Assembly (NCBI GenBank): GCA_029547045.1
Contig: JAKPQL010000121.1
Coordinates: 1 to 64,000, forward strand
Direction of reading: 5' to 3'
From: Deltaproteobacteria bacterium
Lineage (GTDB): Bacteria > Desulfobacterota > Desulfomonilia > UBA1062
DNA: 64,000 nt
The notes under the pieces are model-generated. The model worked only from the letters and a program-made list of their open reading frames with translations, made no database searches and was not told the origin of the DNA. Position 1 is the stretch's first letter. Every line of letters begins with the position of its first letter. The position numbers and the translations under genes were made by a program. Positions 3,263-19,245 of the stretch are shown piece by piece.

Positions 3263-5536
3263 TCAGGGCTCGGGGTATGAAACGCCCGGGTGGTAGATCA
3301 GCGTGACCCTGAAGTAGTACGGCGCCGTGCCGTATGCCCCCCAGTCCTCGTCCGGCTCGGTGTTGTCGTTGCCGCCTGCGTCCAGGAGGTAGTTGAAATC
3401 GCTGATGCTGAAGTAGGCGGGCCCCTGCCAGGGGTCTCCCACCCAGAACATGCCCTGCCCAGCGGACGGCGTCCTCATGTTGAGCGTGTCCGCGGCAATG
3501 GTCAGGTCTCCGGCACTGGCGATGAACCCGTCATAGCCGCTGGTCCTGTCAGCAACCACGGCATTGTCGTTGCGGTCAGGATAGAACTTCCAGATGTACT
3601 CCACGTCGGATGCGGCCGCATAGATGTCCACAAAGATCTCGTAGTACCAGTCCGCGGAGTCGTCCTGGGGCTGGATGTCTATCATGTACCAGTCCTGGTC
3701 ACCCTGGTAGTCCACGTACCCCGCAATCCAGCCGAAGGTGAGCGTGGTGAGCCCGGGCCCGGGGGTGCCTGTCTGGACCACGGCCTGTGCGAAGTCGAGC
3801 ATGGTCGTATCCACGTCGAAGCTCCGGCGCAGCACCGAGTTGTACTCCAGGGTGATGGAACTCTGGACCGGAGAGGACGCCTCGTTGAAGTACCGGATCG
3901 TCCAGCCATGTGGCGGCGCCCCTGGGGACAGCGCCGGGAGCGCATCCGGGATGTCCTTCAGGTCCACCCGGAGGGCATAGGCGACGTCCGCTCCCTCGTC
4001 GTCCTGGTAATCGCTCACCTTGATGGAGTACACCGCCTGCGCCGAGTTCGCCGGGATGATCAGGCTCGTCTTCAGGTTCGTGGGCACGGTGGCGGACCTC
4101 TGGTTTGTCAGGGTCTTGAGGAGCTGGGTTCCCATGATGCCCACGGTGTATTCCACCGGCGATACCGGGGCCTGGAGGTAGACCTCGAGCACCAGGGGCC
4201 GATCGTGGGCCGGGACTGTCACGGCATACCAGTCCGCGTCTCCGCGGAAACTTATCTTCCCCGGGGTGGCCAGGGATGGGTTCGCAGTGGGCGTGATGGG
4301 GTCAGCGGTCTGTATGGTGTCGTTGCCTCCAGGTGCCATGTCCGCGTCGTCCTCAACGTCGTGGACCGTCAGGGCCACCCGGTACGGGAGGGCCTGGCCG
4401 AACCGCTCACCCGTCGCGGGCTGGACCAGGAGGAAGCAGTCCTCGTCGATCCTTACCTGGGTGGTGTACGGTGCTGACCCGGCGCTGTAGGTGTGGGTCA
4501 TGAGGGGGACCGAGTCAACATCCACCAGGCTTACCTGGTACGCGCCCGTGCCCGAGGCGGAAAATTCCACCGAGAGGACCTTGAACCCGTCGGGGAACAG
4601 GGGCGTGGTCACCTCGTAGTAGTCCCTGTCCTCGCGGTAGTCCAGGGAGGCGTTGATGACGAGGGTCTGTCCGTAGTCGACGAGATCGGCGGGAGATGCC
4701 AGGCCCAGGGTGTCGTTTTCAAAGGATTCGGTACCGGACTGTGGATTGATGCACACCTGGTAGGTGGATGCGTTGTCGAAGTGGTCCTTGCCGTAGTCGC
4801 TGACAAGGACATAGTATTCTCCTGCCGCCAGGTGATGGACGAGGTGAAAGTTTCTCACCCCTGCCCCGGTCTGGGACTCCAGAAGGGTCCCGTTCGCATC
4901 GTAGAGCATGACCTGGAGCTGTACCTGGGTCCCGGAAAAGGCGTTGAACCCCACCGCCACGTCGTAGATGCGGTCCGTGGAGGTGAACCGGTAGCAGTCG
5001 GTGTCCAGGACGTGCCCGATGGTGTTCACCGGGCACGTGGCGGCACCGGGGGAAAGGGTCGTGGCCTGGCCGAAGGAGTCGTCTCCGTCGGCGCTGCCCG
5101 CGTAGTCGAGGGTGAGATAGTACCGCTCGTCAGCTGCCGCCTCGTCGTCCTTGAAGTCACGCACCGCGATGTAGATGTCCTTGGGTGCGTCGATGAAGGC
5201 GTTCAGGGTAAGGTTGGCGGGATTTGTGGCATCTTCAGGGGCATGGCAGCCGTATATGACTGTTCTTTCACCCTGGCCGTCCTGCTGGTAGAGGGTCACC
5301 AGGAGGTCGACGTCGGGCCGCAGCGTGTCGCTCATGCACCTGACCTGGAGTACCCTGTTGGTCTCCACGGCCCGGAAGTGGTACCACTTCACGTCGCCCA
5401 CCGAAGATATGGCCCCCGTGGTCCTCGTGCGCAGGGTCAGCTCCTCTGCGCCGGCAGCAGCGCTGTCCGATGGACTGGAAGAGCACGAAACGACAAGGAG
5501 GAGCAGGAAGGGGATAATACCGTACAAGCGTCTCAT
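3263..5536 (-). CDS. lipoprotein with five PPC-like modules
   Basis: Last gene of the 16-kb minus-strand operon, 757 residues. It opens with a lipoprotein signal (MRRLYGIIPFLLLLVVSC) with lipobox ending at Cys18 and a Ser-rich tether, so an envelope or cell-surface lipoprotein is predicted. The body repeats a bacterial pre-peptidase C-terminal (PPC)-like pattern: a Gly/Asp-Asp-x-Asp/Lys-Trp/Tyr-Tyr core recurs about five times (GDVKWYHF, DTDCYRF, EDRDYYEV, GDADWYAV, GDQDWYMI), each followed by beta-rich sequence. No protease or other catalytic domain is visible, which is unusual because PPC domains normally trail an enzyme. A GAGGAG site lies 7 bases before the ATG and overlaps the stop region of the upstream VWA gene. 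Function unknown; surface binding or display is inference. Confidence 0.82.
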   Translation of the reverse strand: MRRLYGIIPFLLLLVVSCSSSPSDSAAAGAEELTLRTRTTGAISSVGDVKWYHFRAVETNRVLQVRCMSDTLRPDVDLLVTLYQQDGQGERTVIYGCHAPEDATNPANLTLNAFIDAPKDIYIAVRDFKDDEAAADERYYLTLDYAGSADGDDSFGQATTLSPGAATCPVNTIGHVLDTDCYRFTSTDRIYDVAVGFNAFSGTQVQLQVMLYDANGTLLESQTGAGVRNFHLVHHLAAGEYYVLVSDYGKDHFDNASTYQVCINPQSGTESFENDTLGLASPADLVDYGQTLVINASLDYREDRDYYEVTTPLFPDGFKVLSVEFSASGTGAYQVSLVDVDSVPLMTHTYSAGSAPYTTQVRIDEDCFLLVQPATGERFGQALPYRVALTVHDVEDDADMAPGGNDTIQTADPITPTANPSLATPGKISFRGDADWYAVTVPAHDRPLVLEVYLQAPVSPVEYTVGIMGTQLLKTLTNQRSATVPTNLKTSLIIPANSAQAVYSIKVSDYQDDEGADVAYALRVDLKDIPDALPALSPGAPPHGWTIRYFNEASSPVQSSITLEYNSVLRRSFDVDTTMLDFAQAVVQTGTPGPGLTTLTFGWIAGYVDYQGDQDWYMIDIQPQDDSADWYYEIFVDIYAAASDVEYIWKFYPDRNDNAVVADRTSGYDGFIASAGDLTIAADTLNMRTPSAGQGMFWVGDPWQGPAYFSISDFNYLLDAGGNDNTEPDEDWGAYGTAPYYFRVTLIYHPGVSYPEP

Positions 5537-5548
5537 GTCTGATCTCCT

Positions 5549-7153
5549 CTAGTGAAGTAGGATGAAGTCCCCCGGTGTGAGCACCACCCGGCGGTCGCGG
5601 TCGTCTATGTTCACGATGACCTCTGCCATGCGGAAGATGGGCGGTGAATCGGGACGGTCCTCGGGCACCTGGGCGAGGTAGAACCGGATGAGGTTGTCTC
5701 CCTCGTGCCACTGGGTGCCGTCCTCCATGACATAGGCCTGGGTGTCGGCCAGGTCGATGTTGGACACATCGAAGGTGAACTGTCTCACGTACGACTCCAT
5801 GTCCGTGCCCTGGTTGATGGGAACGAGCCCGCCGTCAACGATGTCGTAGACATAGCTGTTCCGCTCCCTGATCCTGGGGTCGTTGGACATGACGTTGGTG
5901 TGCCGCTGCACCTCCATCCAGTCGATGACGCCGTCGAAATCCGTGTCCTTGTTCTCATCGGCGGCCAGGGGATTGGTCCCGGATAGAAACTCGATCCCGT
6001 CCGGCATGCCGTCTGAGTCGGTGTCCGGGTTGAACCGGTTCGTTCCCTTGACGTACTCCTCGCAGTCGGTCATGCCGTCGTTGTCCGAATCGATGCCGGC
6101 CATCCATGCGTCGCAGATGCTGTCGGTGGAATCCAGGGGGTCCAGCACATGGCCGGGCGAGCTCATCTTCACCTCGCAGAAGTCGCTCAACCCGTCGTCA
6201 TCGGTGTCTCTGCGCGTCGGGTCCGTTCCGTGGGACTCCTCCTCTTCGTCGGTGAGGCCGTCTCCGTCGCTGTCCACGCCGAGCAGCTCGATGCCCGGCC
6301 GCACGTTGAAGTTGTAGGCCACCAGGTATTTCACGGAATATTCCACGGTAAGCCGCATATCCACGATGTTGATGAAGTCGATGGTCTCTGCGTTCTCGAA
6401 GAGCCGGAACTGCCCGTTCCCCCGTTCGGCCATGCCCTGCAGGGTGGTCTCGGCCTCGGCCTGGCGGGCCCGCCCGTAGGCGTCGTTCCCGAAGTTGCCC
6501 AGGAGCAGGAAGGTGTGGAAGTTGAACGAGCCCACGCCGTAGTCGTCCACCATGGCTGCGATCTCGTCCACCTTGCGCCATATGTCCACATCGGCCTGGG
6601 TCTGTCCCTGGGCGTTGGGCACGCCGTCGCTCAGGAAGATCACGACGTACTTGGAGCGGACCCGCTCCTCCTCGTTGGAGTTCATGATGTCGTTGCGCAG
6701 GTCCACGTAGATGGCATCGAGCGTACCGAGGTAGTCTGTGGTGGTGTCGTTCTGGACATCGGTGAGAATGTCCTCCAGAACCGCGGGATCCTTGGTGAAC
6801 CCGTTCGTGGTCTCGAAGACCGTGTTGCTCCAGAGCATGACGGCGAACGAGGTGTTCTCGTTGCTGTTGTACTGGTTGATGAACTCCCGGGCGGCCTCGA
6901 TGCGCAGGAAGTAGGGGTCCGACCCCGCCACGACGCCCATCTCCTCGTCGCCCATGCTCAGCGAGCAGTCGATGGCGAAGAGCACCTTCACCGGGAACTG
7001 GATCTCGTCCGGGCTCTCCGTGAGGAAGGATCCGGCCAGGGCCCCCTTGGTCTGGGACTGGGTCCGCTCCAGGTCCGGGCTGTCCGTGCACCCGCAGGCC
7101 AGGACCAGCAGAAGGGCGGCCCCAAGGAGGGTTATACGGGGTTCAGTTCTCAT
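5549..7153 (-). CDS. VWA-domain, TSP3-repeat lipoprotein (CglB-like candidate)
   Basis: Predicted surface lipoprotein of 534 residues. A hydrophobic signal ends in LLLVLACGC. The von Willebrand A domain follows with a complete-looking MIDAS metal site: DCSLS (DxSxS) after LFAI, a Thr in the DTTTDYLGT segment, and an Asp in VIFLSDGVPN. After it come Asp-rich calcium-binding TSP3-type repeats (DSDGDGLTDEEE, DTDDDGLSDFCE, DSDNDGMTDCEE, DTDSDGMPDGIE), then a beta-rich C-terminus. The ATG at 7153 is 9 bases after AAAGGAG; the gene overlaps the end of its upstream neighbour by 11 bases, so translation is probably coupled. In Myxococcus, CglB is a VWA-containing outer-membrane lipoprotein acting as the adhesin of the Agl-Glt gliding motor; a similar job here is inference from domain and operon. 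Confidence 0.85.
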   Translation of the reverse strand: MRTEPRITLLGAALLLVLACGCTDSPDLERTQSQTKGALAGSFLTESPDEIQFPVKVLFAIDCSLSMGDEEMGVVAGSDPYFLRIEAAREFINQYNSNENTSFAVMLWSNTVFETTNGFTKDPAVLEDILTDVQNDTTTDYLGTLDAIYVDLRNDIMNSNEEERVRSKYVVIFLSDGVPNAQGQTQADVDIWRKVDEIAAMVDDYGVGSFNFHTFLLLGNFGNDAYGRARQAEAETTLQGMAERGNGQFRLFENAETIDFINIVDMRLTVEYSVKYLVAYNFNVRPGIELLGVDSDGDGLTDEEEESHGTDPTRRDTDDDGLSDFCEVKMSSPGHVLDPLDSTDSICDAWMAGIDSDNDGMTDCEEYVKGTNRFNPDTDSDGMPDGIEFLSGTNPLAADENKDTDFDGVIDWMEVQRHTNVMSNDPRIRERNSYVYDIVDGGLVPINQGTDMESYVRQFTFDVSNIDLADTQAYVMEDGTQWHEGDNLIRFYLAQVPEDRPDSPPIFRMAEVIVNIDDRDRRVVLTPGDFILLH

Positions 7154-7940
7154 CACACGCATCTCCTTTGCCGTCGTGGTCCGAGTCCTTCTGCTCCGGG
7201 TTTGCATAGCTCGGGCAGTTGTCACAGGCATCGCCGATGCCGTCGGAGTCCATGTCCGAGTTCTGCTCGCTGTGCACCCGGGGGCAGAGATCCACGGAAT
7301 CATCGAACCCGTCGTTGTCCCAGTCGTCGTCGCAGGCGTCGCCCGAGGGGTCGCCCGTGAGGTAGCCGTCCGAGTTGCCCTGATTGACGTTTGGCTTCTT
7401 GGGGCAGTTGTCCACATTGTCCGGAATTCCGTCGTTGTCGTCGTCGTCGTCGCAGGCATCGCCCATGCCGTCGCCGTCCGTGTCGATCTGGGAGCTGTTG
7501 CTCACGGCCGGGCAGTTGTCCTGTCCGTTGGGGAAGCCGTCGCCGTCCCGGTCGCTGTCACAGGCATCGCCCTGTCCGTCGCCGTCCGTGTCGGTCTGGT
7601 CGTTGTTCGCCACGGCCGGACAGTTATCACAGGCATCGCCGTAGTCGTCGCCGTCTGAGTTGGTCTGGTCGTTGGCACGGTAGGGGCAGTTGTCCCTGGT
7701 GTCCACCACACCGTCCGCGTCCGCGTCCTCGTCCAGGGACCAGTACGGCCCCAGGTCATACTGCACCAGGATGGGCCCCCCCCCTGCTCCTCCACCTCCC
7801 ACTCCGCCCGCAGGAGGTGCGCCGCAGGTCTGGTCCGGGCATTCGTCGAACCAGTCGTTGGGGTCGGTGATGCCGAACGAGGAAGTGCACATGAGCAGCA
7901 TGAATGCCGCGCATCCGATGATGATCTTCAGGTAGTGCAT
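7143..7940 (-). CDS. secreted thrombospondin type 3 repeat protein
   Basis: A 265-residue exported protein. The N-terminus has a Sec signal (MHYLKIIIGCAAFMLLMCTSSFG), then a short Cys-containing region and a Gly-rich linker. The rest is a tandem array of thrombospondin type 3 units (DxDxDGxGDxCDNCPxxxNxxQ), about seven, with paired Cys and many Asp residues expected to bind calcium and form a rigid rod. There is no other domain. The following VWA gene carries the same repeat type, so the two may form a joint calcium-dependent surface structure. A Shine-Dalgarno AGGGGAG precedes the ATG. The repeat identification is firm, the role is not. Confidence 0.85.
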   Translation of the reverse strand: MHYLKIIIGCAAFMLLMCTSSFGITDPNDWFDECPDQTCGAPPAGGVGGGGAGGGPILVQYDLGPYWSLDEDADADGVVDTRDNCPYRANDQTNSDGDDYGDACDNCPAVANNDQTDTDGDGQGDACDSDRDGDGFPNGQDNCPAVSNSSQIDTDGDGMGDACDDDDDNDGIPDNVDNCPKKPNVNQGNSDGYLTGDPSGDACDDDWDNDGFDDSVDLCPRVHSEQNSDMDSDGIGDACDNCPSYANPEQKDSDHDGKGDACDEN

Positions 7941-7952
7941 GTCAGTCTCCCC

Positions 7953-9326
7953 TCACCGATGGAAAAGGTAGATGGTGCGGTCGGTACCCGAGTAGGTGCA
8001 GATCCAGGCCGATCCGCTGTTGTCGAACAGGAGTGTGTTGTAGGTACCGATATCGCCCGTCGAAGCAACGGTCTGCCTGTCCCAGACCGTTCCCGAGCGC
8101 CGTGCCAGCATGAGGTCCTTGAGGATGAGGCTGCCGCTGTGATTCTGCAGGGCGTAGTAGGCGATGGCGGGATTGCCGGAGGCGTCGAAAGCCAGGCTGC
8201 AGTGCTGCCCGCAGTGCGTGCTCTCGTCGACGAAGCTGGTGGTCCACGCGGTGCCGATCCTGGTGGCGAACTTCAGACAGCGGCCGTGGGTGACGCCCCG
8301 GGAGTCGGTGTACTCGCCTTCCACGGAGTAGGCCACGCAGAGGTTGCCTTGGGCATCCAGTCCGCAGCTGATGCCGGATACCTCGAAGCCCTGCTCCACC
8401 CATTCCCTCTGCCATGCCTGGCCGTCGTAGATGGCGACACGCAACCCCTTGGTGTCGGAGTCCGACATGTTGGGCGCAAGGTCTGCCGAGTAGAACACCG
8501 CCGGGTTCCCCTGGGCATCGATGACCATGGCGGCGTGGGCACCGACCCTGTTCTGCTCGCTTGCCGTACCGTTCGGATTGTACATGTTCCCCTCCACGGT
8601 AACTTCTTCACCTGCCGAGTCGAGGGCAGCCCGGTCCTTTGCCACATGGAGCAGGTCAGGATAGTTGAAGTTCATGGCGTCGATTCCCTCATAGAAAAAC
8701 TGATAACAAAGGTGGATCAGACCGGTCCCGTCAACGGCCATGGCCACATGCTTGCCTGCCAGGCCGTCCTCGAACACCGGGTTTCTCTCAACGAACCCGA
8801 TGCCGCCGGTATACTCCCGCCAGGTGCTGCCTTGGAGAACGCTCACCATGACATCGGACTGCTGCTCTGATCCTCCCGCCCTGACCTGGCCGCCCTGGTA
8901 GGCCACCAGCGGCATGCCGTCGGGGTCGAGAGCCGCTGCCAGGGTCCTGCAGTTGTCCACATCCACCACCTGTTCACGGGAGACCTCGGCCTCTGCCACC
9001 ATATCCCATGCGACATGGTGGAGGGTGTAGTGGCCGTCGGTGTACGTGCTGTCATCGAAATAGGAGATGTGGAGCATACCCGTGCCGTCGTGCACGGCCT
9101 TCACCTGGGGCAGGAGCAGCCCGCCGTCACTCACAGTGGCGATGGCGACGCGCTGCCACGTATCCGTGCCCGGCTCCACCTGTGAGTTTCCGTCATTGCC
9201 GCCCGAGTCGCCACCCGAGGCGGACCCTTTTCCTCCACAGGCCGGGAACAGGGCTGCTGCCAGGAACAGGCACCACGCCAGGAACAGGGCGAACAGGTCA
9301 CTTCTTCGATATCTGGATGGATGCAT
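7953..9326 (-). CDS. lipoprotein with seven propeller-like repeats
   Basis: Lipoprotein of 457 residues. The start at 9326 is chosen because AAAGGAG lies seven bases upstream and the sequence then gives a clean lipoprotein signal (LFLAWCLFLAAALFPAC) followed by a Gly/Ser/Asp tether. The mature part contains seven copies of a short motif: Asp-x-x-Gly, then hydrophobic residues, then Tyr (for example DGTGMLHISY, DPDGMPLVAY, DAQGNPAVFY, DAQGNLCVAY, DASGNPAIAY, DNSGSAWICTY). This spacing suggests a seven-bladed beta-propeller, related in style to sialidase/YVTN-type folds. It overlaps the end of the upstream TPR gene by 29 bases. No catalytic residues were recognised. Surface binding is plausible but inferred. 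Confidence 0.8.
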   Translation of the reverse strand: MHPSRYRRSDLFALFLAWCLFLAAALFPACGGKGSASGGDSGGNDGNSQVEPGTDTWQRVAIATVSDGGLLLPQVKAVHDGTGMLHISYFDDSTYTDGHYTLHHVAWDMVAEAEVSREQVVDVDNCRTLAAALDPDGMPLVAYQGGQVRAGGSEQQSDVMVSVLQGSTWREYTGGIGFVERNPVFEDGLAGKHVAMAVDGTGLIHLCYQFFYEGIDAMNFNYPDLLHVAKDRAALDSAGEEVTVEGNMYNPNGTASEQNRVGAHAAMVIDAQGNPAVFYSADLAPNMSDSDTKGLRVAIYDGQAWQREWVEQGFEVSGISCGLDAQGNLCVAYSVEGEYTDSRGVTHGRCLKFATRIGTAWTTSFVDESTHCGQHCSLAFDASGNPAIAYYALQNHSGSLILKDLMLARRSGTVWDRQTVASTGDIGTYNTLLFDNSGSAWICTYSGTDRTIYLFHR

Positions 9327-12300
9327 GGTAGAGCTCCTTTGCCCGTGGATGGATGACGTCCTCGGTCTTCTCGATCTCTGAAAGGGCGGGCAGCCCTGCA
9401 TAGATCTCCTGCGCCTGCACGGTATGCCCGTAGTGCGTGAGCAGGGCGGCAAGGTTCACCCGTGCGCCCACGTGGGTGGGTAAAGCTGAGATGGCACCGC
9501 GGAATGCATCGCGGGCAAGGCAGTCTTCGCCGAGGTGCAGCCGGGACACGCCCAGGGCGTTCTGGAGGTCTGCCGTCACGTCCGGGCTCGCGCCACTTTT
9601 CTCATCAAGCGCCTTCAGCGCGATGAGGGTGGCGTGCCGGTAGTCCCCGCGCTGCATGTATGCCGTGCAGAGATCCAGCAGCGTCCCCTGATCAGGTTTT
9701 TCCTTCAGAAGCCGCTCGTGGATCGCCTTGAGCTCCTGGTCCAGCAGGCACTGGCCGCCGATCTCCGCCGATGCCGATGTGCCGGCAAAGGTGGCAACAC
9801 GCGCCGGGGCCGAGCCGGGCTCCGCGGCGTGATTGCAGTACCAGGCAAGCCCTGGGTCACAGATCTCCCACTTGCGACCCTGCTGCACCGCGGTCTGCAG
9901 GTACTGGTCCGCCTTGTCCCGGTATGCCTGGGCCTTCTCCTCGATGATCTGGGCGTACTGCTCCTGTTCCTCGGGGCTCAGCTCCGCAGGGATGGGTGCC
10001 TCTTCGAGGAAGCGGGCGAATTCCCGGTTGATGGAAGAAGCCTGATAGCAGGCCTTGAGTGCCCATTCCGGCGACCTGGAGAGCATGACCTCCTGGTAGC
10101 CCTTTTCCAGCCGTTCCAGCAGGGCCGTCTTCCTGGCCACCACGTCATTGTCGATCTGGCCCGAGAGCTTCAGTTCCATGTATTCTCTCAGCTGCAGGGA
10201 GGTGGACGCATAGGTCATGCGGGCCAGGTCCCGGGCAGCAGCGGGGTCGGTATCGGAGATCTTCCGGGCAGGGGACTTTTCGACCCTCTTCAGGGAGGCC
10301 TCCGCCCTGCCTGCCTCACCCGACTCGATGAGGAGCGCCGCGGTCCTGGCCTCGGCACGGATCCTGCCCGCTTCGCCCAGCCTGTCCCGGTGCTCGGTCA
10401 GGACCTCGATGGATGCACCGGTCTCGCCGCGGGCAAGGAGGCTATCGGATGCGCCGAATACCGCCTCGTTCATCATGGCGCCGTTCACGGACCGCATGGA
10501 AAGGAGCTGGCGGTAATCCTTTGCGGCGAGGTCATGCTGGCCGAGACCCGCCCTGATGCGAGCCGCCTGCAGGAGGAAATCCTTCGCGTTCTTGTGGTCC
10601 GGCAACCTCAGGGAGAAGGACTCCAGGTAGTCGGCCGTGAGCCGGAACTGGGCCATGCGGAGAGACCCGTCGATCATGGCGTTCAGGGTGCCCTCCACCT
10701 TCGGCGACGTCGGGTACTGCCGCACGAGGTCGGCGCCCGTGGTGAGCAGGGTCCTGATGTCCCCCTTCTCTTTGCTGGACAGGACCACCGCTGCCAGGGC
10801 CTGCTCGCCCATGCCGCTCGTGGGGGTCTGAGAGGCGTACGAGATGAGATCTTCCTTGCCCTTTTCCCAGTCATCCAGGGCCGCAACGGTGAGCGACGAG
10901 ATGACCTTGTTCTCGGTGGACTGCACGATGCCCGCAACCTCGGCCTTGAGCTGCTGGTCCGTGATGCCCGCGTTTCTGATGACGCCGTTGCCGAATGCGA
11001 TGAGGCCAGGGTAGTCCTCCTTGAGACTGTAGGCGTCGAGGATCATGTGCACCGCGGCCTTGGAGGCTTCACCGTCCGGGTAGTCCTGCACGAACCTGGT
11101 GAACTCCGCGATGGCACCGTCATAGTCGCCGGCATCGTAGGCGACCCATGCCACGTTGAACCGCACATCCGGCACCCGGGGCGAGCCCGGATAGGATTCG
11201 GCAAAGAGCCTGCCCGCCGACTTGAGACCTTCCCGGGCATAGGCTGTCTCGAAGTAGGTGAGATGTTCCCGATTCCTGATGGCATGGTAGTACGAGGTCA
11301 CCGCGGCCGACAGCTTCTCCTGCCTTCCCGGATCGGCCTTGTCCATGCGCAGGGCCAGGGTCTCGTACTGTCTGCCCGCCTTGAGGTACTGATGCGAGCT
11401 GAAGAGCGCCTCGGCATAGTTCTCCGCCATGTCTGCGTATGCGGGGCTGTCCTCGAAGAAGTCCAGGTAGACCTTGTACGCTTCGGCGGCGCGTCTGAAC
11501 TCGTCCGCCGAGTCGTTTCCGCGAGCATGCTCGTGCAGGTAGGTGATGATGTTCCGGGCATAAAGCTCGAAGTCGGCCTGGTCCTTGGCCTTCACCTCAT
11601 CGGGACAGAAGGCGGAGTACTTTTCCTTCCTGAGCGCCTTCACGATGAGCACCACGTCCTGGTCCGCATGCTCGAAGGTGCCCAGAGCCTGCACGCACTC
11701 GAAGGTGTTCCGCGCATACTCCAGCAGCTTCACGGGTTCCTGTTCCAGCGAGGAGAGCTTCCGGTAGACCACCGCGGCATGGGCCCACTTCTTCTTGATG
11801 TAGTAGCGGTTCGCCAGCTTCTCCAGGACAGACGCGTAGACCTGGCGGGACCAGGAGTATTTCTGGAAATATGCCAGAGCCTCCTCGGGCGGGTTGTCCC
11901 GGTGGGCCTCGGTGTAGCAGTAGGCCATGTCCATGAGGGCCTCCTGCTTGATGTCCACCCGCTTGTAGGTGTCTATCTCCAGGTCCTTGCCCTTCTCCAC
12001 GCCCGTGACAACCTCCTGGAAGAGCGCGAGTGCCTCGGCGAACTGGAGCTGGTTGATGTGGCACCAGCCGAGCTTGTAGCGGGCGATGGAGACGGCACTG
12101 CTGCCAGGGTATCTGAGGACCGCCTCGTAGTGCTTCTTTGCCGTGTCAAGGTCCTGCCTGCTGATGAAGTAGTCTCCCAGGAGCAGGTACGACTCCGGCA
12201 CATAGATGCTGTCAGGGTACTTCTGGATAATGGTCCGGTACTGTACCACCATGTCGTCGATCTGGTTCAGCTCCCGGTACTCGTGGGCCATGAAGAAGTG

Positions 12301-12732
12301 CACCTTGTCACGGGCTCCGAAGGAGGGGAAGTCGTTCAGGATCCGCTGGTAGATCTCCAGCGCCTGGTTCTTCAGGGCGTTGGACTCCATCTGGTCGAAG
12401 GCCGATGCAGCCTCGCGCCTCTCTGTCCTGCGCACGTAGTAGACGATGCGCGACTGCTCGATGTAGAGCTCGGCAAGACGCATGTAGAGCTCGGGAAGAT
12501 ACGGTTTGTTCCTGGCCTTGTGGATCAGGGCCTTTGTGTTGAGGATGGCGAGCTCGACCTTCTTCCTGTCCTCGGCAAGGCGGGAGAGATACTTCGCCTC
12601 CCCGGCGAGCCTGTCCTTCTTCTCGAACCCGTACTCGTCGGCACGGACGGGACAGGCGACCGTAAAGGCCAGGAAAACCGCGAGGAGAACCCGGAAGAGA
12701 ACCGATGATGGCAGGCTGTGTCGTGTCTTCAT
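9298..12732 (-). CDS. large periplasmic TPR protein
   Basis: A 1144-residue exported protein with a signal peptide (MKTRHSLPSSVLFRVLLAVFLAF, then VACPVRADEYG). Nearly the whole length is helical tetratricopeptide repeats; typical TPR signatures with Pro at the turn are seen in LNDFPSFGARDKVHFFMAHEY, IIQKYPDSIYVPESYLLLGDY and LRYPGSSAVSIARYKLG, and again near the C-terminus. The start overlaps the stop of the upstream gene as ATGA. Large TPR proteins bridge the periplasm in Myxococcus Glt/Nfs complexes; this gene has the matching position between the beta-barrel and the lipoproteins. Orthology to a named Glt protein was not tested. A plus-strand open frame of similar length opposite it is a coding shadow. 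Confidence 0.88.
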   Translation of the reverse strand: MKTRHSLPSSVLFRVLLAVFLAFTVACPVRADEYGFEKKDRLAGEAKYLSRLAEDRKKVELAILNTKALIHKARNKPYLPELYMRLAELYIEQSRIVYYVRRTERREAASAFDQMESNALKNQALEIYQRILNDFPSFGARDKVHFFMAHEYRELNQIDDMVVQYRTIIQKYPDSIYVPESYLLLGDYFISRQDLDTAKKHYEAVLRYPGSSAVSIARYKLGWCHINQLQFAEALALFQEVVTGVEKGKDLEIDTYKRVDIKQEALMDMAYCYTEAHRDNPPEEALAYFQKYSWSRQVYASVLEKLANRYYIKKKWAHAAVVYRKLSSLEQEPVKLLEYARNTFECVQALGTFEHADQDVVLIVKALRKEKYSAFCPDEVKAKDQADFELYARNIITYLHEHARGNDSADEFRRAAEAYKVYLDFFEDSPAYADMAENYAEALFSSHQYLKAGRQYETLALRMDKADPGRQEKLSAAVTSYYHAIRNREHLTYFETAYAREGLKSAGRLFAESYPGSPRVPDVRFNVAWVAYDAGDYDGAIAEFTRFVQDYPDGEASKAAVHMILDAYSLKEDYPGLIAFGNGVIRNAGITDQQLKAEVAGIVQSTENKVISSLTVAALDDWEKGKEDLISYASQTPTSGMGEQALAAVVLSSKEKGDIRTLLTTGADLVRQYPTSPKVEGTLNAMIDGSLRMAQFRLTADYLESFSLRLPDHKNAKDFLLQAARIRAGLGQHDLAAKDYRQLLSMRSVNGAMMNEAVFGASDSLLARGETGASIEVLTEHRDRLGEAGRIRAEARTAALLIESGEAGRAEASLKRVEKSPARKISDTDPAAARDLARMTYASTSLQLREYMELKLSGQIDNDVVARKTALLERLEKGYQEVMLSRSPEWALKACYQASSINREFARFLEEAPIPAELSPEEQEQYAQIIEEKAQAYRDKADQYLQTAVQQGRKWEICDPGLAWYCNHAAEPGSAPARVATFAGTSASAEIGGQCLLDQELKAIHERLLKEKPDQGTLLDLCTAYMQRGDYRHATLIALKALDEKSGASPDVTADLQNALGVSRLHLGEDCLARDAFRGAISALPTHVGARVNLAALLTHYGHTVQAQEIYAGLPALSEIEKTEDVIHPRAKELYHASIQISKK

Positions 12733-14222
12733 TTGAAAAAGATGTCCCACTCCTCGAGATTTGAGCACTTGTTGGGGAGGACCACCTTGAGGTCCGCGAG
12801 TTCGTCGTTCCAGAACTCGCCCTGGAACGGGTACACCACCACGCCCCGTGAGTCGTCGCCGCGAGCCTGATCCTTTCCTGCGTAGTGGTACTGGCTGACC
12901 CGCTGGTACATGTCGAGGCCGATCTCGTAGGCCATGAGGTGCGCCTCCTCCTCGTAGCGCAACAGGTCGTCGGCGTATTTTTCGTACTCCTCCTCCACCT
13001 GCGTCTTCAGGGTGTCCGTTTCCTTTTCGATCTGAAGGGCATAGATCCTGTCCAGGTAGGTGAAGAAGTCATCGTCCCCGTCCTTCCTGAAGCTCCCGCA
13101 CCGGGCACGTTCCTGCTCCAGCAGCTGGAGGAAATCCCAGGTCTGGCGCACGGCCTTCCTGTTCAGGATCAGCAGCAGCAGCTCGCTGTTCTCGCTGGTC
13201 TTGCCCCGCTGGTAGATCCCGGCAAGGGCGGATCCGTATCGGCCCTTGAATTCGTTCACCACGTTCAGCGCGCTCTGGTAGTGGCACACGTCCTTGTAGA
13301 TGAAGGACTTGAGCATGTAGTATTCCGGCGTGAGATGGTTACGGTAGCTCGGGGCCTCGAAGGCGTAGAGCAGGCCCATGGCCTTCTCGGGGTTGCCCAT
13401 CCGGTAGTGGGCCCACGCCCGCTCCATGAGGTTCTGCGACTGGGCCAGGATGTTCTCCTCGATGGCCTGGTACAGGAGGTCGCTCTCGGCGTACTTCTTC
13501 TGCTCGTAAAGCAGCCGGGCCAGGGTCTTGCGCGCCTGGTCCTTGAGGTTCTCGTCCGTGCACGAGCCGGTGATCACCTGCCTGAGCAGGGGGACAGCCT
13601 CTTCGATCCTGTCCTGGTGGATCCTCAGCAGGGCTTTCCGGTTGAGGTACTGGTAGTAGTACCGGCTCTGCGGGGTTATCCTCGCGAAGTGCTCGTCGCC
13701 CCAGGACATGAACCCGTGCTCCCAGTCGTACACGCCCTGGTGGTAATGGACGAAGTCTGACAGCGCGCCTTCCACATACCCGAATTCATGGTCGCACACG
13801 GTCTGGGCGACGATGAGTTCGCGGTCATGGGGCTGGGAGCGGGACACGGACTCGAAGACCTCCAGGCTGTATTCCACGATCCTCGGGTTGGGCCTGCGCG
13901 CCACGACTCTGGCCAGGATACCGGTGGCCGCATGGGTGTACCCGAGCTTCATGAGGGACACCCCCAGGAAAAACTCGGCCCACTCGTAGTCGGGCGCATC
14001 CGGAGTGTAGGTGCTCACGTAGCGGTGGAACTCCGGGCACGCAGCGGCGTAGTCCTGCTGCTTGAAGAACTCGTAGCCCCTGAAGAAGCTCGTCTGGTCC
14101 ACCTCTACCACTGCCGGAGCTGCCATGGTCTCCATGGGCGCGGCATCGGGCTCAGCGGTGTATCCGGCAAGGGACACGCCGAGGCAGAACGCCGCGATGA
14201 GTACAGCTGTGCGGCTATTCAT
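12729..14222 (-). CDS. exported TPR protein
   Basis: A 497-residue protein with a signal peptide (MNSRTAVLIAAFCLGVSLAGYTAEP) and a body of TPR-like helical repeats, for example the segment beginning FFRGYEFFKQQDYAAACPEF and the later DQARKTLARLLYEQKKYAES and GNPEKAMGLLYAFE stretches. It probably acts in the periplasm as a scaffold. The ATG at 14222 was chosen because it precedes the signal peptide and overlaps the end of the upstream beta-barrel gene by 8 bases; the downstream TPR gene starts within its stop codon. The pair of consecutive TPR genes after an outer-membrane beta-barrel matches the style of Glt/Nfs clusters. Confidence 0.85.
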   Translation of the reverse strand: MNSRTAVLIAAFCLGVSLAGYTAEPDAAPMETMAAPAVVEVDQTSFFRGYEFFKQQDYAAACPEFHRYVSTYTPDAPDYEWAEFFLGVSLMKLGYTHAATGILARVVARRPNPRIVEYSLEVFESVSRSQPHDRELIVAQTVCDHEFGYVEGALSDFVHYHQGVYDWEHGFMSWGDEHFARITPQSRYYYQYLNRKALLRIHQDRIEEAVPLLRQVITGSCTDENLKDQARKTLARLLYEQKKYAESDLLYQAIEENILAQSQNLMERAWAHYRMGNPEKAMGLLYAFEAPSYRNHLTPEYYMLKSFIYKDVCHYQSALNVVNEFKGRYGSALAGIYQRGKTSENSELLLLILNRKAVRQTWDFLQLLEQERARCGSFRKDGDDDFFTYLDRIYALQIEKETDTLKTQVEEEYEKYADDLLRYEEEAHLMAYEIGLDMYQRVSQYHYAGKDQARGDDSRGVVVYPFQGEFWNDELADLKVVLPNKCSNLEEWDIFFK

Positions 14223-14937
14223 GGACTTCGTTGCCCTCCAGGTACCCCTTGAGTCTGTCCACGGTCTCGTCCTGTTCACCCCTGTCCGGGAACAGATTGA
14301 ACTGAACCGACATGCCTATCCCGAAATAGATGTTGTTCTCGGTGTTGTCCTTCTTCAGGTTGACCAGATCGCGGATCTCCAGGGTCATGCAGAGGTTCCT
14401 GCTGAGGAAATATCGGGTCCCGGCTCCCAGGCAGATGGACGGGTCGGTCTCGGCATCGGTGTCGCCGTTGCTGAAGTTCTTCTCATAGGCGATCATGCCG
14501 CCGCCCAGGATGAGGTAGCTCTCGTGGTTGAGGATGCCCCTGTTCCAGAGCGTTTCCTTGCCATACAGGGGCTTGAGGATGATATTGGAGTGGATCATGT
14601 ACCTGGGTTCCAGGAAAACCTCGGGGGTGACCCCGAACTCGTCTTCAAGCTTGTCCTTGATGTCCTTCTCCTGGGTGAACATGTACTGGCCGCGGACCAC
14701 CTCCCAGGCCAGCCAGTGGTTGAAGTGGTACGTGTAGCCGATGCCCACGGGGTATGCGTTGTAGAAGTCCTCGTCAGGCACGTACCCGATGTTGATGCCG
14801 ATCTCGTGGTGACGGTGGAAGACCCGCTCCTGGATGGCGAACACCTTTTCATCGTTCTGGGCGCCCGCGGCCATGGCGGGTGCCGGTGCGAGGACGATGA
14901 ACAGGATCATGATGCCCGTGATGGTTGTGCTCCGCAT
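14215..14937 (-). CDS. outer-membrane beta-barrel protein (myxobacterial type)
   Basis: A 240-residue predicted outer-membrane beta-barrel. The signal peptide (MRSTTITGIMILFIVLAPAPAMAAGA) is followed by a segment with the feel of the OMP_myx_plus family: VFAIQERVFHRHHEIGINIGYVPDEDFYNAYPVG, then alternating aromatic and polar strands, a GAGTRYFLSRNLCMTLEIRDLV strand pair, and a final strand NNIYFGIGMSVQFNLF before a short charged tail. In myxobacteria this family accompanies gliding and sporulation envelope complexes. The Shine-Dalgarno AAGGAG lies 9 bases before the ATG. It sits 13 bases after the FHA/TonB gene, so a trans-envelope contact between the two products is plausible. Confidence 0.87.
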   Translation of the reverse strand: MRSTTITGIMILFIVLAPAPAMAAGAQNDEKVFAIQERVFHRHHEIGINIGYVPDEDFYNAYPVGIGYTYHFNHWLAWEVVRGQYMFTQEKDIKDKLEDEFGVTPEVFLEPRYMIHSNIILKPLYGKETLWNRGILNHESYLILGGGMIAYEKNFSNGDTDAETDPSICLGAGTRYFLSRNLCMTLEIRDLVNLKKDNTENNIYFGIGMSVQFNLFPDRGEQDETVDRLKGYLEGNEVHE

Positions 14938-14950
14938 TGCTCCACGCTCC

Positions 14951-17182
14951 TTAGAATCCGACGATGTCGAAGATGAACGGATAGGACACGATCACCTCGT
15001 TGCCTTCGGGCTGGGGGAATTCCCACGACTTGATGGACGACTGGATGCAGGCATGGATGTCGGACGAATTGAGGGTGGAAGACTTGACGCTCACCTCGCC
15101 GACGCGTCCCGACATGAGGATCTTCCACTCGAACACGACCCGTCCCATGAGGGAGGGGTTGGCCACGAGCGCCGTCTCGTAGCAGCGGGTGATTTCCTCG
15201 AGGTGCATGTCGATGATCCGCTTGACTTCTTCGCGGCTCATGCCCCCGCCGGCCACCTTGACGGTCTTGCTCAGCCGGGCAGACACCTTCGCCTTGACCT
15301 GGTTCTTTCCCGTGCTCCCCTTGTCCAGAGCCGCCACGAGGGCGCCTCCGCTTCCGGATCCCATGACCTGGGACGATCCCTTGGTGTTCACGATGCCCGC
15401 CTTGGGGATCTCGATCCTGCCCCCGTCGAGCTTGCCCACGATGCCGCCCACCTTGAACTGGGCACTGTTCTGGGCAGAGCTGCTCACCGCATCGAGATTG
15501 GTGACCGCGGCCATGGCCTCCTGGGGCTTGATGCCGATGTTGTCGCCGAGCATGCTCAGGATTCCGGTCTGGCGGACATTCCTGACCGGCGCGCCGGCCT
15601 GGGGCTCGCCTGCGGCGGACGCCACCTTCCGGGTGTCTGCGGGTGAAGGGGCCGCAGTGCGTTCCGCCGTGCCCTTGGGCAAAGCCTTCTTCGGGACCCT
15701 CTGGGCGAGCTGCTTCTCCTTTTCCCTGATGATCTCCGGGGCCTTCTTGGGCAGCTGGGGAGGCTGGATCCTCTTCCTGATCTCGTCCATCTGCCGGGAG
15801 TCCACCTTGACGAAGCGGCCGCTGTCCTGGGACAGGGGTTCAGGCTTGTAGGTGGGCATCATGCCCAGGATCACCAGGATGATGACGTGGATCACCACGG
15901 ACCTGCCGAAATGACGGACATACTCCCGGTCGCCCTTGGGTGTCTCCTGGATCCGGGGGCTTTTTCCCGGCCGGGTGAGCCTGAGTAGGTACTCATAGGG
16001 TCCATGGTGGAACACCGCTGTCTCTTCGCCCGTGAGCTGCCTGCCGCGGACAGGCGGGTGCTGATCCGTGCCAGGGCCCTTTCCCTTCCCGGTCGAGGCT
16101 GTCTGAACACCTGCAGGATCCTGGTCCTGCAGGTACAGGAAGACCTCTCCCTTGCCCCTGTTCTCTGCCAGGCAGAACACGCCCTGGCCCGTACGGATGA
16201 AGTACTTCTCCTTGGCGCCGAGGAACCGCACGTCCATGATGGCGTCGTGCCGTGTCTTGACCACCTCGAGCAGGATATCCTGACCTGCGGGTGCCGGGTG
16301 TTCCTCCGTGACGCAGCGGCCGTCCCTGATGCTGTCCTTCAGGGAGAAGGTGGGCCGGAAACCATCATCGTCATCATCATCGTCATCATCCTCTCCTGTT
16401 CCCCTTTTCCTGCCGGCCGGAGCCTGAACCTGTTCGGGCAAGGGTCTGCATACGGTCTCCGCCCGCTCATCGGTCTGATCATGTGCCCTTTCACAGCTCT
16501 CCGGCGGGATGGTTTCTCCGTGCTCAACGAAACACAGGGCCCCTGCCTCCTCGAACATGTCCCGCAGCTCGCGGACGACATCATGGGAGGCATTCTTCTT
16601 GAGAATGATCTTCTTCCCCGAGAAGAGCCGTTCCAGGGAGGCGCTGTCCTTCCTGAGCAGGCGGGCGAGGTTCTCGATCACCTGGGCCTGGGACATGCCC
16701 TGTCTGATGCGCCCCTCGAAGGTCAGCGTGAAGGAACCGTTCCCCGGGATTGAGTCCTCGCGGGCCTGTGGGGCCCTGTCGGTGGGCTCATCCTTGATGG
16801 AGGCACCGGAAGGTCCTGCAGAGAGCTGTTTCGAACCCTTGTTGAGCTTGACCTTTAGGGTGAAGGGACCCACGAGGATCGCATCCAGGGGACCCACAAC
16901 CATCCCGCCTGTGGCTGACGCATGTGCACGTTTCTGCCCAGGGTAGGATGCCAGCACGCTGCCCTGGGCGATCCGCAGGATTACGTGGGCCTCTTCCACC
17001 GCGCTGTCCTCGAGCCGCAGGTCGGCGTCAGGCCCGCTCCCGACCACCACCTGTTCCTTGCAGAAGCAGTCCCAGCCGAGATGCTCGCTGCCTCTAAAGA
17101 CGAAGACCTGGAGCAGGGCCTGCTGCCGGTGAGACTCATCCCCAGGCATCGATGTGCCAGCTCGTGGATTATTCCGATCCAT
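14951..17182 (-). CDS. FHA/TonB-like trans-envelope protein (AgmX/PglI-type C-terminus)
   Basis: Multi-domain inner-membrane protein of 743 residues. In order: an FHA-like domain (about 20-115); a small domain at 150-220 (LTFEGRIRQGMSQAQVIENL to AGALCFVE) of a kind also seen at the N-termini of unrelated membrane proteins; a run of nine Asp at 265-273; a second FHA-like stretch (about 303-400); one membrane helix at about 427-444; a Pro/Lys-rich TonB-like periplasmic linker; and a C-terminal AgmX/PglI-type domain (VKRIIDMHLEEITRCYETAL onward). This architecture matches the Glt proteins that couple the Myxococcus AglRQS motor to the outer membrane. The start at 17182 overlaps the upstream gene by 14 bases; an inner Met at 17149 lacks a Shine-Dalgarno. 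FHA domains read phosphothreonine, so kinase input is possible. Confidence 0.85.
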   Translation of the reverse strand: MDRNNPRAGTSMPGDESHRQQALLQVFVFRGSEHLGWDCFCKEQVVVGSGPDADLRLEDSAVEEAHVILRIAQGSVLASYPGQKRAHASATGGMVVGPLDAILVGPFTLKVKLNKGSKQLSAGPSGASIKDEPTDRAPQAREDSIPGNGSFTLTFEGRIRQGMSQAQVIENLARLLRKDSASLERLFSGKKIILKKNASHDVVRELRDMFEEAGALCFVEHGETIPPESCERAHDQTDERAETVCRPLPEQVQAPAGRKRGTGEDDDDDDDDDGFRPTFSLKDSIRDGRCVTEEHPAPAGQDILLEVVKTRHDAIMDVRFLGAKEKYFIRTGQGVFCLAENRGKGEVFLYLQDQDPAGVQTASTGKGKGPGTDQHPPVRGRQLTGEETAVFHHGPYEYLLRLTRPGKSPRIQETPKGDREYVRHFGRSVVIHVIILVILGMMPTYKPEPLSQDSGRFVKVDSRQMDEIRKRIQPPQLPKKAPEIIREKEKQLAQRVPKKALPKGTAERTAAPSPADTRKVASAAGEPQAGAPVRNVRQTGILSMLGDNIGIKPQEAMAAVTNLDAVSSSAQNSAQFKVGGIVGKLDGGRIEIPKAGIVNTKGSSQVMGSGSGGALVAALDKGSTGKNQVKAKVSARLSKTVKVAGGGMSREEVKRIIDMHLEEITRCYETALVANPSLMGRVVFEWKILMSGRVGEVSVKSSTLNSSDIHACIQSSIKSWEFPQPEGNEVIVSYPFIFDIVGF
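16364..16390 (-). repeat. trinucleotide repeat coding for nine aspartates
   Basis: Nine consecutive GAT/GAC codons (ATC/GTC on the plus strand) inside the FHA/TonB gene encode an unbroken run of nine Asp in the cytoplasmic linker. Seven of nine are GAT and two GAC, so the tract is imperfect but could still slip during replication without changing frame. Confidence 0.9.
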
Positions 17183-17594
17183 GCCCCTTCCCCTTGAGAA
17201 CGGGATGTTTCCCCGTGCGGTCTTCCTCCCGTGCCGGATTGCCCCGAGCGTCCCGTCCCTCCTGGTGCTGTTCGTCCTGGGTGACAAACCCTTCCAGGAT
17301 CTCCTTGCGGTAATCCTCCCGGTAGGTGAGCATGCTCTTGATCTCGCTCTTCTTGCGCTGGAGGAGATAGACCGCCCCGGACTTGATGGTCTGGCCGATG
17401 ATGTAGGTGTTCCCGAAATCGATCCTGCTCATGCGCGAATCGGCAGGCTGCCCTCTGTCGGCTGATGCCTCGGCCCGAACGGGCTTGTCGGCTGTCAGCG
17501 CTTCGGGAGTATCCTGGAAAGGCTCAGGCACTGCGGCAATACACAGGAGTCCCGCAACGAGGGCGGCGAGGAGTGTCTTATCGTTCAGCTCCAT
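17169..17594 (-). CDS. small exported protein of the motor operon
   Basis: A 141-residue protein with an N-terminal hydrophobic segment (LLAALVAGLLCIAAV) acting as signal peptide or anchor, a Pro/Ala-rich spacer, and a conserved-looking core (residues about 60-100) reading FGNTYIIGQTIKSGAVYLLQ followed by a Lys/Arg-rich helix. Small periplasmic proteins with a similar 'G-x-I-x-K-x-x-x-x-x-L-x-R' core occur next to ExbD genes in myxobacterial clusters, as far as I recall, but I cannot name the family. AGGAGG precedes the ATG. It lies between the second exbD-like gene and the FHA/TonB gene, so a role as an adaptor of the motor is plausible. Confidence 0.7.
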   Translation of the reverse strand: MELNDKTLLAALVAGLLCIAAVPEPFQDTPEALTADKPVRAEASADRGQPADSRMSRIDFGNTYIIGQTIKSGAVYLLQRKKSEIKSMLTYREDYRKEILEGFVTQDEQHQEGRDARGNPAREEDRTGKHPVLKGKGHGSE

Positions 17595-17609
17595 GGCGGA
17601 ATCCTCCTG

Positions 17610-18098
17610 CTACTGCTTCAGCACGCCGAACTGGAAGTTCGGAAACCCGGCCATGCCCGCGGTCTTGATGATGCCGTTGATGGTCTTGAAGGAGAGGCGC
17701 TTGTCGCAGAGGAACAAGACCAGGTCCTTGTCCACTGCCGGATCCTGAGACCGGCTGATCGCGCTCTTGCATTCCTTGAGTCTCTGGTAGAGGACAGATC
17801 CCTCCAGGTTCTCCGGATCGAGGCCCACCACGCGGCCGCCCTGGACCTTGGCCACGGCCTGGCTGCCCAGCCACACCGTGTTCTCCGACACCACGAGCCT
17901 GACGGTATCCTGGTAATCCGCCTGCGCCGCCGACTTGGGGAGCTGAATCTTGCCATCGATCTTCATGGTCACCACGTCCTTGGAAAAGGACACGAGGAGG
18001 AAAATGAGCAGGATGGTGAACATGTCCATCATGGAGGTGAGCTGGAGCTTCGGGATATCGGTCTGCCTTGAACGTCTCCGTGACCTGCCAAGCGCCAT
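17610..18098 (-). CDS. ExbD/TolR-family protein with intact Asp
   Basis: A 162-residue inner-membrane protein with a basic cytoplasmic N-terminus, a single membrane helix and a periplasmic domain, the ExbD/TolR plan. The helix carries the expected proton-binding acidic residue: Asp25 in LTSMMDMFTILLIFLLVSF. ExbD/TolR proteins form a dimer inside an ExbB/TolQ pentamer and convert proton motive force into movement or energy transfer. The periplasmic domain includes a helical segment and an FLCDKRLSFKTINGI stretch typical of the ExbD fold. GGGGAGG lies shortly before the start. It is the second of two exbD-like genes; the first has lost this Asp. Confidence 0.93.
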   Translation of the reverse strand: MALGRSRRRSRQTDIPKLQLTSMMDMFTILLIFLLVSFSKDVVTMKIDGKIQLPKSAAQADYQDTVRLVVSENTVWLGSQAVAKVQGGRVVGLDPENLEGSVLYQRLKECKSAISRSQDPAVDKDLVLFLCDKRLSFKTINGIIKTAGMAGFPNFQFGVLKQ

Positions 18099-18109
18099 GG
18101 CGTCCTCCC

Positions 18110-18616
18110 CTACCCCACCTTCCCCGATATCACCACGTTGGGGAAGAGCTGAGTCTCGCCGGTGTTCCGCGCCACGTCCATGGCCCTGATGATGGTTTCG
18201 TAGACAATGGTGTCCCCGGGCATGATGATCACCGTGTCGCTCAGGGGGTAGCTGGTCTTGATTCCCTGAAGGAACGAGGACAGCCGATCCATGGCGTACC
18301 GGCCCGTTCCCTCCTTCGCGATCACCGTCTCGAAGCCTCTGAGCGTCTGCTCGTCCACCTCGTCGGACATGGCGGACACCGTGATGCCCGTCTCCTCGAG
18401 CTGCACGATCACGGTCACCTTGGCAGTGCTCTGCACCGGCCCTGACTCCGCTTTGCTGCTCAGGACAGGGACCGTGGTGTTGATGGCCCTCAGGTGGAAG
18501 AAGCTCGCCGAAATGAGCAGGAACGGGATGATGACCAGGAACATGTTCATGATGGGGACCAGGTCGAGGTCGGTGACCTCGGCCTGCCTTTTACGGGGCT
18601 TCCTGTCGCCTAGCAT
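18110..18616 (-). CDS. ExbD/TolR-like protein with Asn replacing the key Asp
   Basis: A 168-residue protein with the ExbD/TolR arrangement: charged N-terminus ending DLDLVPIMNMF, one membrane helix (LVIIPFLLISASFF) and a periplasmic domain. The position that carries the proton-conducting Asp in ExbD, TolR and MotB-like proteins is Asn24 here (VPIMNMF against the usual VPLxDxx). The protein is otherwise well preserved, so a heterodimer with the Asp-containing neighbour is likely. The start at 18616 was chosen because the encoded N-terminus matches the family; it overlaps the exbB-like stop by 7 bases. The frame remains open upstream only as a shadow. Confidence 0.9.
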   Translation of the reverse strand: MLGDRKPRKRQAEVTDLDLVPIMNMFLVIIPFLLISASFFHLRAINTTVPVLSSKAESGPVQSTAKVTVIVQLEETGITVSAMSDEVDEQTLRGFETVIAKEGTGRYAMDRLSSFLQGIKTSYPLSDTVIIMPGDTIVYETIIRAMDVARNTGETQLFPNVVISGKVG

Positions 18617-19245
18617 GAGGTCTCCCTCTCCTGCTTCATGGACGATAGCGCGTTGAAGAGACCGAGCGCCTTCTCCTCGAACTGGTCGATGAGGTGGTCG
18701 CCCCTGTTGTTCAGCACGTAGTACCCCACCAGGCACGGGATGGCGACGATAAGGCCGAAGGCCGTGGTGAGCATGGCCACGGAGATGCCGCTGGCGAGCA
18801 TCTCCTGCTTCATGGCCTCGTTCGCGTTGCTCACCCCCTGGAAGGCGCCGATGAGCCCGATGATGGTGCCCAGCAGCCCCAGGAGGGTGGATATGTTGGC
18901 GAACAGGGTGAGCAGGTTGATGCGGGCCTTCACACGGGGGATCTCCTGGATGATCTTCTCCTCCATGGCCCGCTCGATCTCCTTGTCGCGCCGGTCCGAC
19001 TTCAGGAGACCCGCCTTGAGGATCCTGCCCAGGGGGTGCTTCTCGAACCGCGTGCATTCCTCGATGGCGCCGCGGAAGTTCATCCCCTCCAGCGAGAGCA
19101 TCACCTTCTGGAAGACCGCATCCGCATCGAGCTTCAGCCGGAAGTAGAGAAAGCTCGCACGCTCGCAGAAGAGGCCCAGGGCGATGATGGACACCAGCAA
19201 GATGGGGTACATGAAGAATCCACCTGCCTGAAACATGGATAACAT
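18610..19245 (-). CDS. ExbB/TolQ/MotA-family motor protein
   Basis: First gene of the 16-kb operon, 211 residues. It shows the three-helix ExbB/TolQ plan: helix 1 near residues 12-30 (MYPILLVSIIALGLFCERASF), a cytoplasmic loop rich in charged residues, then helices 2 and 3 in NLLTLFANISTLLGLLGTIIG and VAMLTTAFGLIVAIPCLVGYYVL. The Gly/Thr-rich helix 2-3 sequence is the proton-channel surface of this family. Together with the two ExbD-like proteins it would form a proton-driven motor comparable to AglR with AglQ/AglS of Myxococcus. AAAGGAG lies seven bases before the ATG at 19245; an upstream in-frame Met was rejected because it has neither. Confidence 0.93.
   Translation of the reverse strand: MLSMFQAGGFFMYPILLVSIIALGLFCERASFLYFRLKLDADAVFQKVMLSLEGMNFRGAIEECTRFEKHPLGRILKAGLLKSDRRDKEIERAMEEKIIQEIPRVKARINLLTLFANISTLLGLLGTIIGLIGAFQGVSNANEAMKQEMLASGISVAMLTTAFGLIVAIPCLVGYYVLNNRGDHLIDQFEEKALGLFNALSSMKQERETSC

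Follow-up and report, generated by a model that had tools for sequence, protein, structure and literature searches.

The ExbB5–ExbD2 and TolQ5–TolR2 motors of Escherichia coli turn on a homodimeric axle with two aspartates. The flagellar stator MotA5–MotB2 follows the same 5:2 plan, again with a homodimer and a membrane aspartate on the axle (PMC9389320). Published models assign one proton to each 36° step, ten protons to a full turn, and a maximal torque of 10 e PMF/2π (PMC9389320, PMC12215075); asparagine at the proton site is treated as a protonation mimic (PMC9389320). The Agl–Glt system of Myxococcus xanthus (AglR–AglQ–AglS plus Glt) combines one ExbB-like protein with two ExbD-like proteins, AglQ and AglS. 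Both carry the conserved aspartate according to a review that states as an open question whether they form hetero- or homodimers (PMC9389320). The D28N exchange in aglQ abolishes proton conductance and paralyzes the Agl motor (PMC3858216). Single-operon homologues of the Agl–Glt core complex have been described by Luciano et al. (2011, PMC3169522), whose main text contains neither "aspart-" nor "Asn".

The window, i.e. the whole 64,000-nucleotide stretch of DNA analyzed here, encodes an operon of similar composition, with one ExbB-like and two ExbD-like proteins (Table 1). A GltG/J-type transducer, an OMP_myx_plus barrel, a GltC-like TPR protein, a CglF-like protein, and a VWA protein nearby are likewise shared with M. 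xanthus Agl–Glt.

Table 1. Coordinates of the motor genes and the adjoining operon in the window.
Feature	Position	Strand	Remarks
ExbB/TolQ/MotA-like pore subunit, 211 aa	18610..19245	-	overlaps subunit 1 gene
Subunit 1, ExbD-like, Asp-less	18110..18616	-	168 aa; N24 at proton-carrying position, Pro31 at +7
Subunit 2, ExbD-like, Asp-bearing	17610..18098	-	162 aa; D25 in TSMMDMF, codon GAC
CglF-like small protein	17169..17594	-	NCBIfam NF033764 E=1.4e-4, below cut-off; syntenic in 19/19 contig loci
GltG/GltJ-like TonB-type transducer, AgmX/PglI C-terminal domain	14951..17287	-	NF033768 109.5 bits, cut-off 40; start codon unsure
Outer membrane beta-barrel (OMP_myx_plus)	14215..14937	-	TIGR04565 85.1 bits, cut-off 60
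GltC-like TPR protein	12729..14279	-	NF033756 E=1.1e-27, below equivalog cut-off
Large TPR protein of same operon	9298..12768	-	profile matches, synteny
Operon-end protein, no Pfam match	7953..9452	-	syntenic in most relatives
VWA + TSP3-repeat protein, possible surface adhesin	5549..7459	-	PF00092 and PF18884

Both ExbD-like proteins match the ExbD/TolR profile PF02472 (42.4 bits for subunit 1 and 45.4 bits for subunit 2, at a curated cut-off of 25.4). The segment around Asn-24 of subunit 1, DLDLVPIMNMFLVIIPFLL, retains the ExbD transmembrane motif, and a long stretch of invariant columns flanks the pore residue. The membrane aspartate expected of a proton-carrying ExbD/TolR/MotB axle subunit is absent from subunit 1, where Asn-24 (codon AAC) sits in VPIMNMF. 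The first-pass annotation had set this residue against Asp-25 in TSMMDMF of the neighboring paralogue, and its coordinates, strand, and residues are all exact. In this respect the window would differ from M. xanthus; if both AglQ and AglS have an aspartate, as the review states (PMC9389320), the trait may be absent from the best-studied relative. The host genome contains two further ExbD genes, and the aspartate is present in L002, the one inspected.

By domain content and synteny, the operon is assigned to the Agl–Glt-type gliding "core complex"; the matches to GltG, GltC, and CglF stay below their curated equivalog thresholds. Its composition fits the single-operon form reported by Luciano et al. 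(PMC3169522). The order ExbB, Asn subunit, Asp subunit, CglF-like, and GltG/J-like protein is found in 19 of 19 named loci, and the barrel comes next in all of these except L016, whose contig continues without a match. In three of three loci scanned from more distant clades, the gene after the motor trio encodes a TonB-like protein that carries the AgmX/PglI domain. The GltG/J-like protein itself shows a weak FHA-type match at its N terminus (PF16697). In L018 and L024, homologues of the VWA/TSP3 protein adjoin the motor operon, which recalls the CglB adhesin of Myxococcus gliding. The operon (positions 9298–19245 of the window) is patchily distributed, with the Asn subunit encoded in 3 of 41 near relatives and in two of the five genomes of the genus. 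This pattern suggests frequent loss or transfer. No relatives were found in plasmids (tblastn) or viral contigs (scan).

The structure model of subunit 1 (mean pLDDT 74.0) comprises a helix at residues 19–37, predicted with low confidence, and a folded domain from about residue 66 (pLDDT about 85–94). It thus matches in prediction the single N-terminal membrane helix and periplasmic α/β domain expected of the family. For the model of subunit 2 (mean pLDDT 66.6), solved ExbD and TolR periplasmic domains are the best matches, whereas no such domain appears in the top 50 Foldseek hits of the subunit 1 model, so that the periplasmic part of subunit 1 may be specialized. A PDB search by sequence returned nothing for subunit 1.

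An initial pattern scan of genome contigs yielded 19 loci, all of them with Asn in subunit 1 and Asp in the partner. Since one of the peptide patterns contained the Asn, this set is biased, and we therefore searched with subunit 2 instead and read the residue in the gene upstream, which makes the query independent of the Asn. This survey drew on 395 genomes of the window's phylum, 321 of the gammaproteobacterial class, and 198 from the phylum to which a Nitrospirae locus belongs, and it also took in 16 genomes behind named loci, the fetched loci, and the 19 contig loci. Two extra draws, from the phyla of G425 and G421, consisted largely of the window's phylum again, and the survey was without Myxococcota genomes.

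Altogether, 159 distinct loci were collected, and subunit 1 was readable in 156. Its residue at the proton position is Asn in 132 pairs, Ser in 13, Cys in two, Thr in one, and Asp in eight, these counts being of distinct sequences and not of independent events. Thus, the aspartate is missing from subunit 1 in 148 of 156 pairs, whereas subunit 2 has Asp every time. All 33 unpaired (single) ExbD proteins from the same searches, some of them near-duplicates, carry Asp as well. The other two near relatives with a gene for subunit 1 have the Asn as well (68% and 57% identity), which, together with the 132 pairs, disposes of the possibility that it is unique to this sequence. Nor does another acidic residue take over the equivalent position: in the 94 Asp-less first subunits examined, the stretch from −5 to +13 around the site contains no Asp or Glu. 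Acidic residues are frequent on the cytoplasmic side, though no closer than −6, and return from +14. Judged from these sequences, the Asp-less/Asp pair is kept across three large groups, the window's phylum, Nitrospirota, and Gammaproteobacteria; the feature is an old and widespread property of a motor class, broader than could be seen from the window alone.

The two subunits are closely linked to each other and to one ExbB. In the 198 Nitrospirota genomes, the 25 strong matches to subunit 1 and the 25 strong matches to subunit 2 lie at the same 25 places, as judged by comparing the two match tables by eye. A strong subunit 2 match (E below about 1e-25) is present in 72 of the 321 sampled gammaproteobacterial genomes (∼22%). 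In 101 of 102 loci, the gene immediately upstream of the pair encodes ExbB. In the window, the ExbB stop codon overlaps the start of subunit 1 (ATGCTAG) and the two ExbD genes are only 11 bases apart; joint translation of all three genes is therefore probable. The distances of the first subunit, the second subunit, and ExbB co-vary (Mantel r 0.87–0.90), as is partly expected from vertical descent. At two loci of the window's phylum, L048 (149–1468, plus strand) and L049 (1995–3326, minus strand), ExbB is fused to an Asp-less first subunit with Ser at the site in one frame of ∼440 amino acids, and a separate Asp subunit is encoded next door.

A tree of 209 rows separates first subunits, second subunits, and single ExbD proteins (SH-aLRT 98, 99, and 91 for the respective branches) and needs three changes between Asp and other residues. 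Three changes are likewise required in a 159-row first-subunit tree computed with the site and position +7 masked, in which Asp arises three times among Asn rows. These trees were computed by a quick method from about 170 columns, and their deep branching order is unsure. The simplest history would be a single duplication followed by one loss of the aspartate, in the ancestor of all first subunits, and by three returns. Each return comes with loss of the proline at +7, and two of the three come with a Glu in ExbB. The third, independent return, in L227 (674–1234, minus strand), keeps Val in ExbB.

The residue at the proton site changes together with other positions. Proline at +7 is present in 142 of 148 Asp-less first subunits and in none of the eight with Asp. 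In ExbB, Thr-127 and Thr-161 of the window align with Thr-148 and Thr-181 of E. coli ExbB (both proteins belonging to the MotA_ExbB family, as both axle proteins belong to the ExbD family), and the equivalents of both threonines are kept in 94 of 94 partner ExbB proteins each; because these ion-path residues are kept, the channel appears to be live. Glu-176, which matters in E. coli ExbB, is replaced by Val-156 in the window. Its equivalent is hydrophobic or Thr in all Asp-less systems but one, whereas it is Glu in seven of the eight systems with two aspartates. A perfect link between the aspartate of subunit 1 and the glutamate of ExbB was rejected, as the Asp pair in L227 has Val and the Ser pair in L040 has Glu. 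Some single-ExbD systems have Val in place of this Glu too, and the link is therefore only suggestive; with only three phylogenetically independent pairs, the coupling cannot reach significance in any test, and a Fisher value, which takes no account of relatedness, carries little weight.

What the sequences show directly is which residues occupy the sites and how well they are conserved, together with the obligate pairing, the operon, and the coupled changes; from these we infer the dimer type, stoichiometry, proton use, stepping, and role of the machine. The three genes probably specify one 5:2-type motor, in which an ExbB-like pentamer surrounds an axle that pairs an Asp-less with an Asp-bearing ExbD-like subunit. 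A heterodimer with a single protonatable residue had already been suggested by the first-pass annotation and stands as the best reading, backed by obligate adjacency, a single ExbB in each operon, co-divergence, strict conservation, and the coupled changes. In such a motor, only subunit 2 would take up and release protons, and subunit 1 would be permanently neutral, like a protonated arm. Because there would be one aspartate per axle, published turnstile logic predicts five protons and five 72° power strokes per turn instead of ten strokes of 36°; each proton would then drive twice as much rotation, and the maximal torque would fall to one half. From the axle, the torque would go to the GltG/J transducer, which is TonB-like, and to an envelope machine of the Agl–Glt type. 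The asymmetric or reduced torque that the same annotation proposed follows from the published model of 36° per proton, provided that the heterodimer is real.

Alternatively, the axle could be a homodimer of the Asp-bearing subunit, with the Asp-less paralogue as an accessory protein outside the pore, serving as a scaffold or contacting peptidoglycan or the transducer. The periplasmic domain of subunit 1, predicted to differ from that of subunit 2, may indeed do something else, and fusions of ExbB to the first subunit would put copies outside the pore; these fusions also fit a 5:1:1 stoichiometry poorly unless the chain is cleaved. We nevertheless regard an accessory role as unlikely: the transmembrane motif of ExbD survives in the Asp-less subunit, where the pore residue sits among invariant columns, and the residue at the site varies in step with the helix proline and, in part, with the ExbB TM3 position, behavior that a helix within the pore should show. 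The two subunits could also form separate homodimers. Another scenario is regulation by mixed assembly, in which rings with two aspartates are active, those with one or none are slow or blocked, and the subunit ratio sets the activity. That an Asp-to-Asn exchange can inactivate a motor is known from aglQ D28N (PMC3858216), but the fixed adjacency, the overlapping genes in one operon, and the 25/25 pairing favor a fixed stoichiometry and make such regulation improbable.

The Asn, Ser, or Thr subunit might instead help to coordinate another ion, such as Na+, and not be inert. The replacements found (Asn, Ser, Thr, or Cys) and the Thr pair present in most partner ExbB proteins would agree with this, as threonines tune Na+ use in PomA (PMC10341847); the same Thr pair is, however, common in single-ExbD systems, and this role seems very improbable to us. 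Relaxed constraint or a decaying gene in the window's genome alone might be suspected from a protein encoded in so few near relatives (3 of 41), but decay is refuted by the conservation of the Asp-less state over three major groups with intact frames. Moreover, a single transition (AAC to GAC) would restore Asp, which was nevertheless regained only three times.

If the heterodimeric one-proton-site axle is real, the motor should advance in 72° steps, use five protons per turn, and contain the two subunits at a fixed 1:1 ratio. Current 5:2 models assume two equivalent aspartates, and the system of the window is conserved and would be naturally asymmetric. The Asp-to-Asn exchange is a laboratory mutation in MotB and a conserved natural state here. 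With the lopsided pair kept in three large groups, motors with one proton site seem to be in use in nature. More tentatively, and with the balance tipped slightly against it, we suggest a widespread class of rotary motors built on this axle, a gear change that halved the protons per turn and broke the two-fold symmetry, fixed once after duplication while the pore proline and the ExbB TM3 glutamate changed too. The proteolipid ring of V-type ATPases, a protein family unrelated to ExbD, offers a likeness, since gene duplication there was followed by the loss of part of the proton sites, which changed the proton-to-rotation ratio. In the literature searched, with subscription papers largely outside its reach, no report of the Asn state was found, nor was a laboratory test of a single-proton-site axle.

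Asymmetric pairs occur in culturable groups such as Gammaproteobacteria, which makes the dimer type and the two-aspartate assumption testable. In L233 (756–1433, plus strand) and L234 (743–1420, plus strand), the first subunit has Cys at the proton position (PIMCLF) and the partner has Asp, so that the Cys provides a natural handle for labeling or cross-linking. Downstream of the gammaproteobacterial motor trio in L244, a 1233-amino acid protein with cyclic-nucleotide-binding and rhodanese domains (3450–7151, minus strand) is encoded after a PDZ/GspC-like protein.
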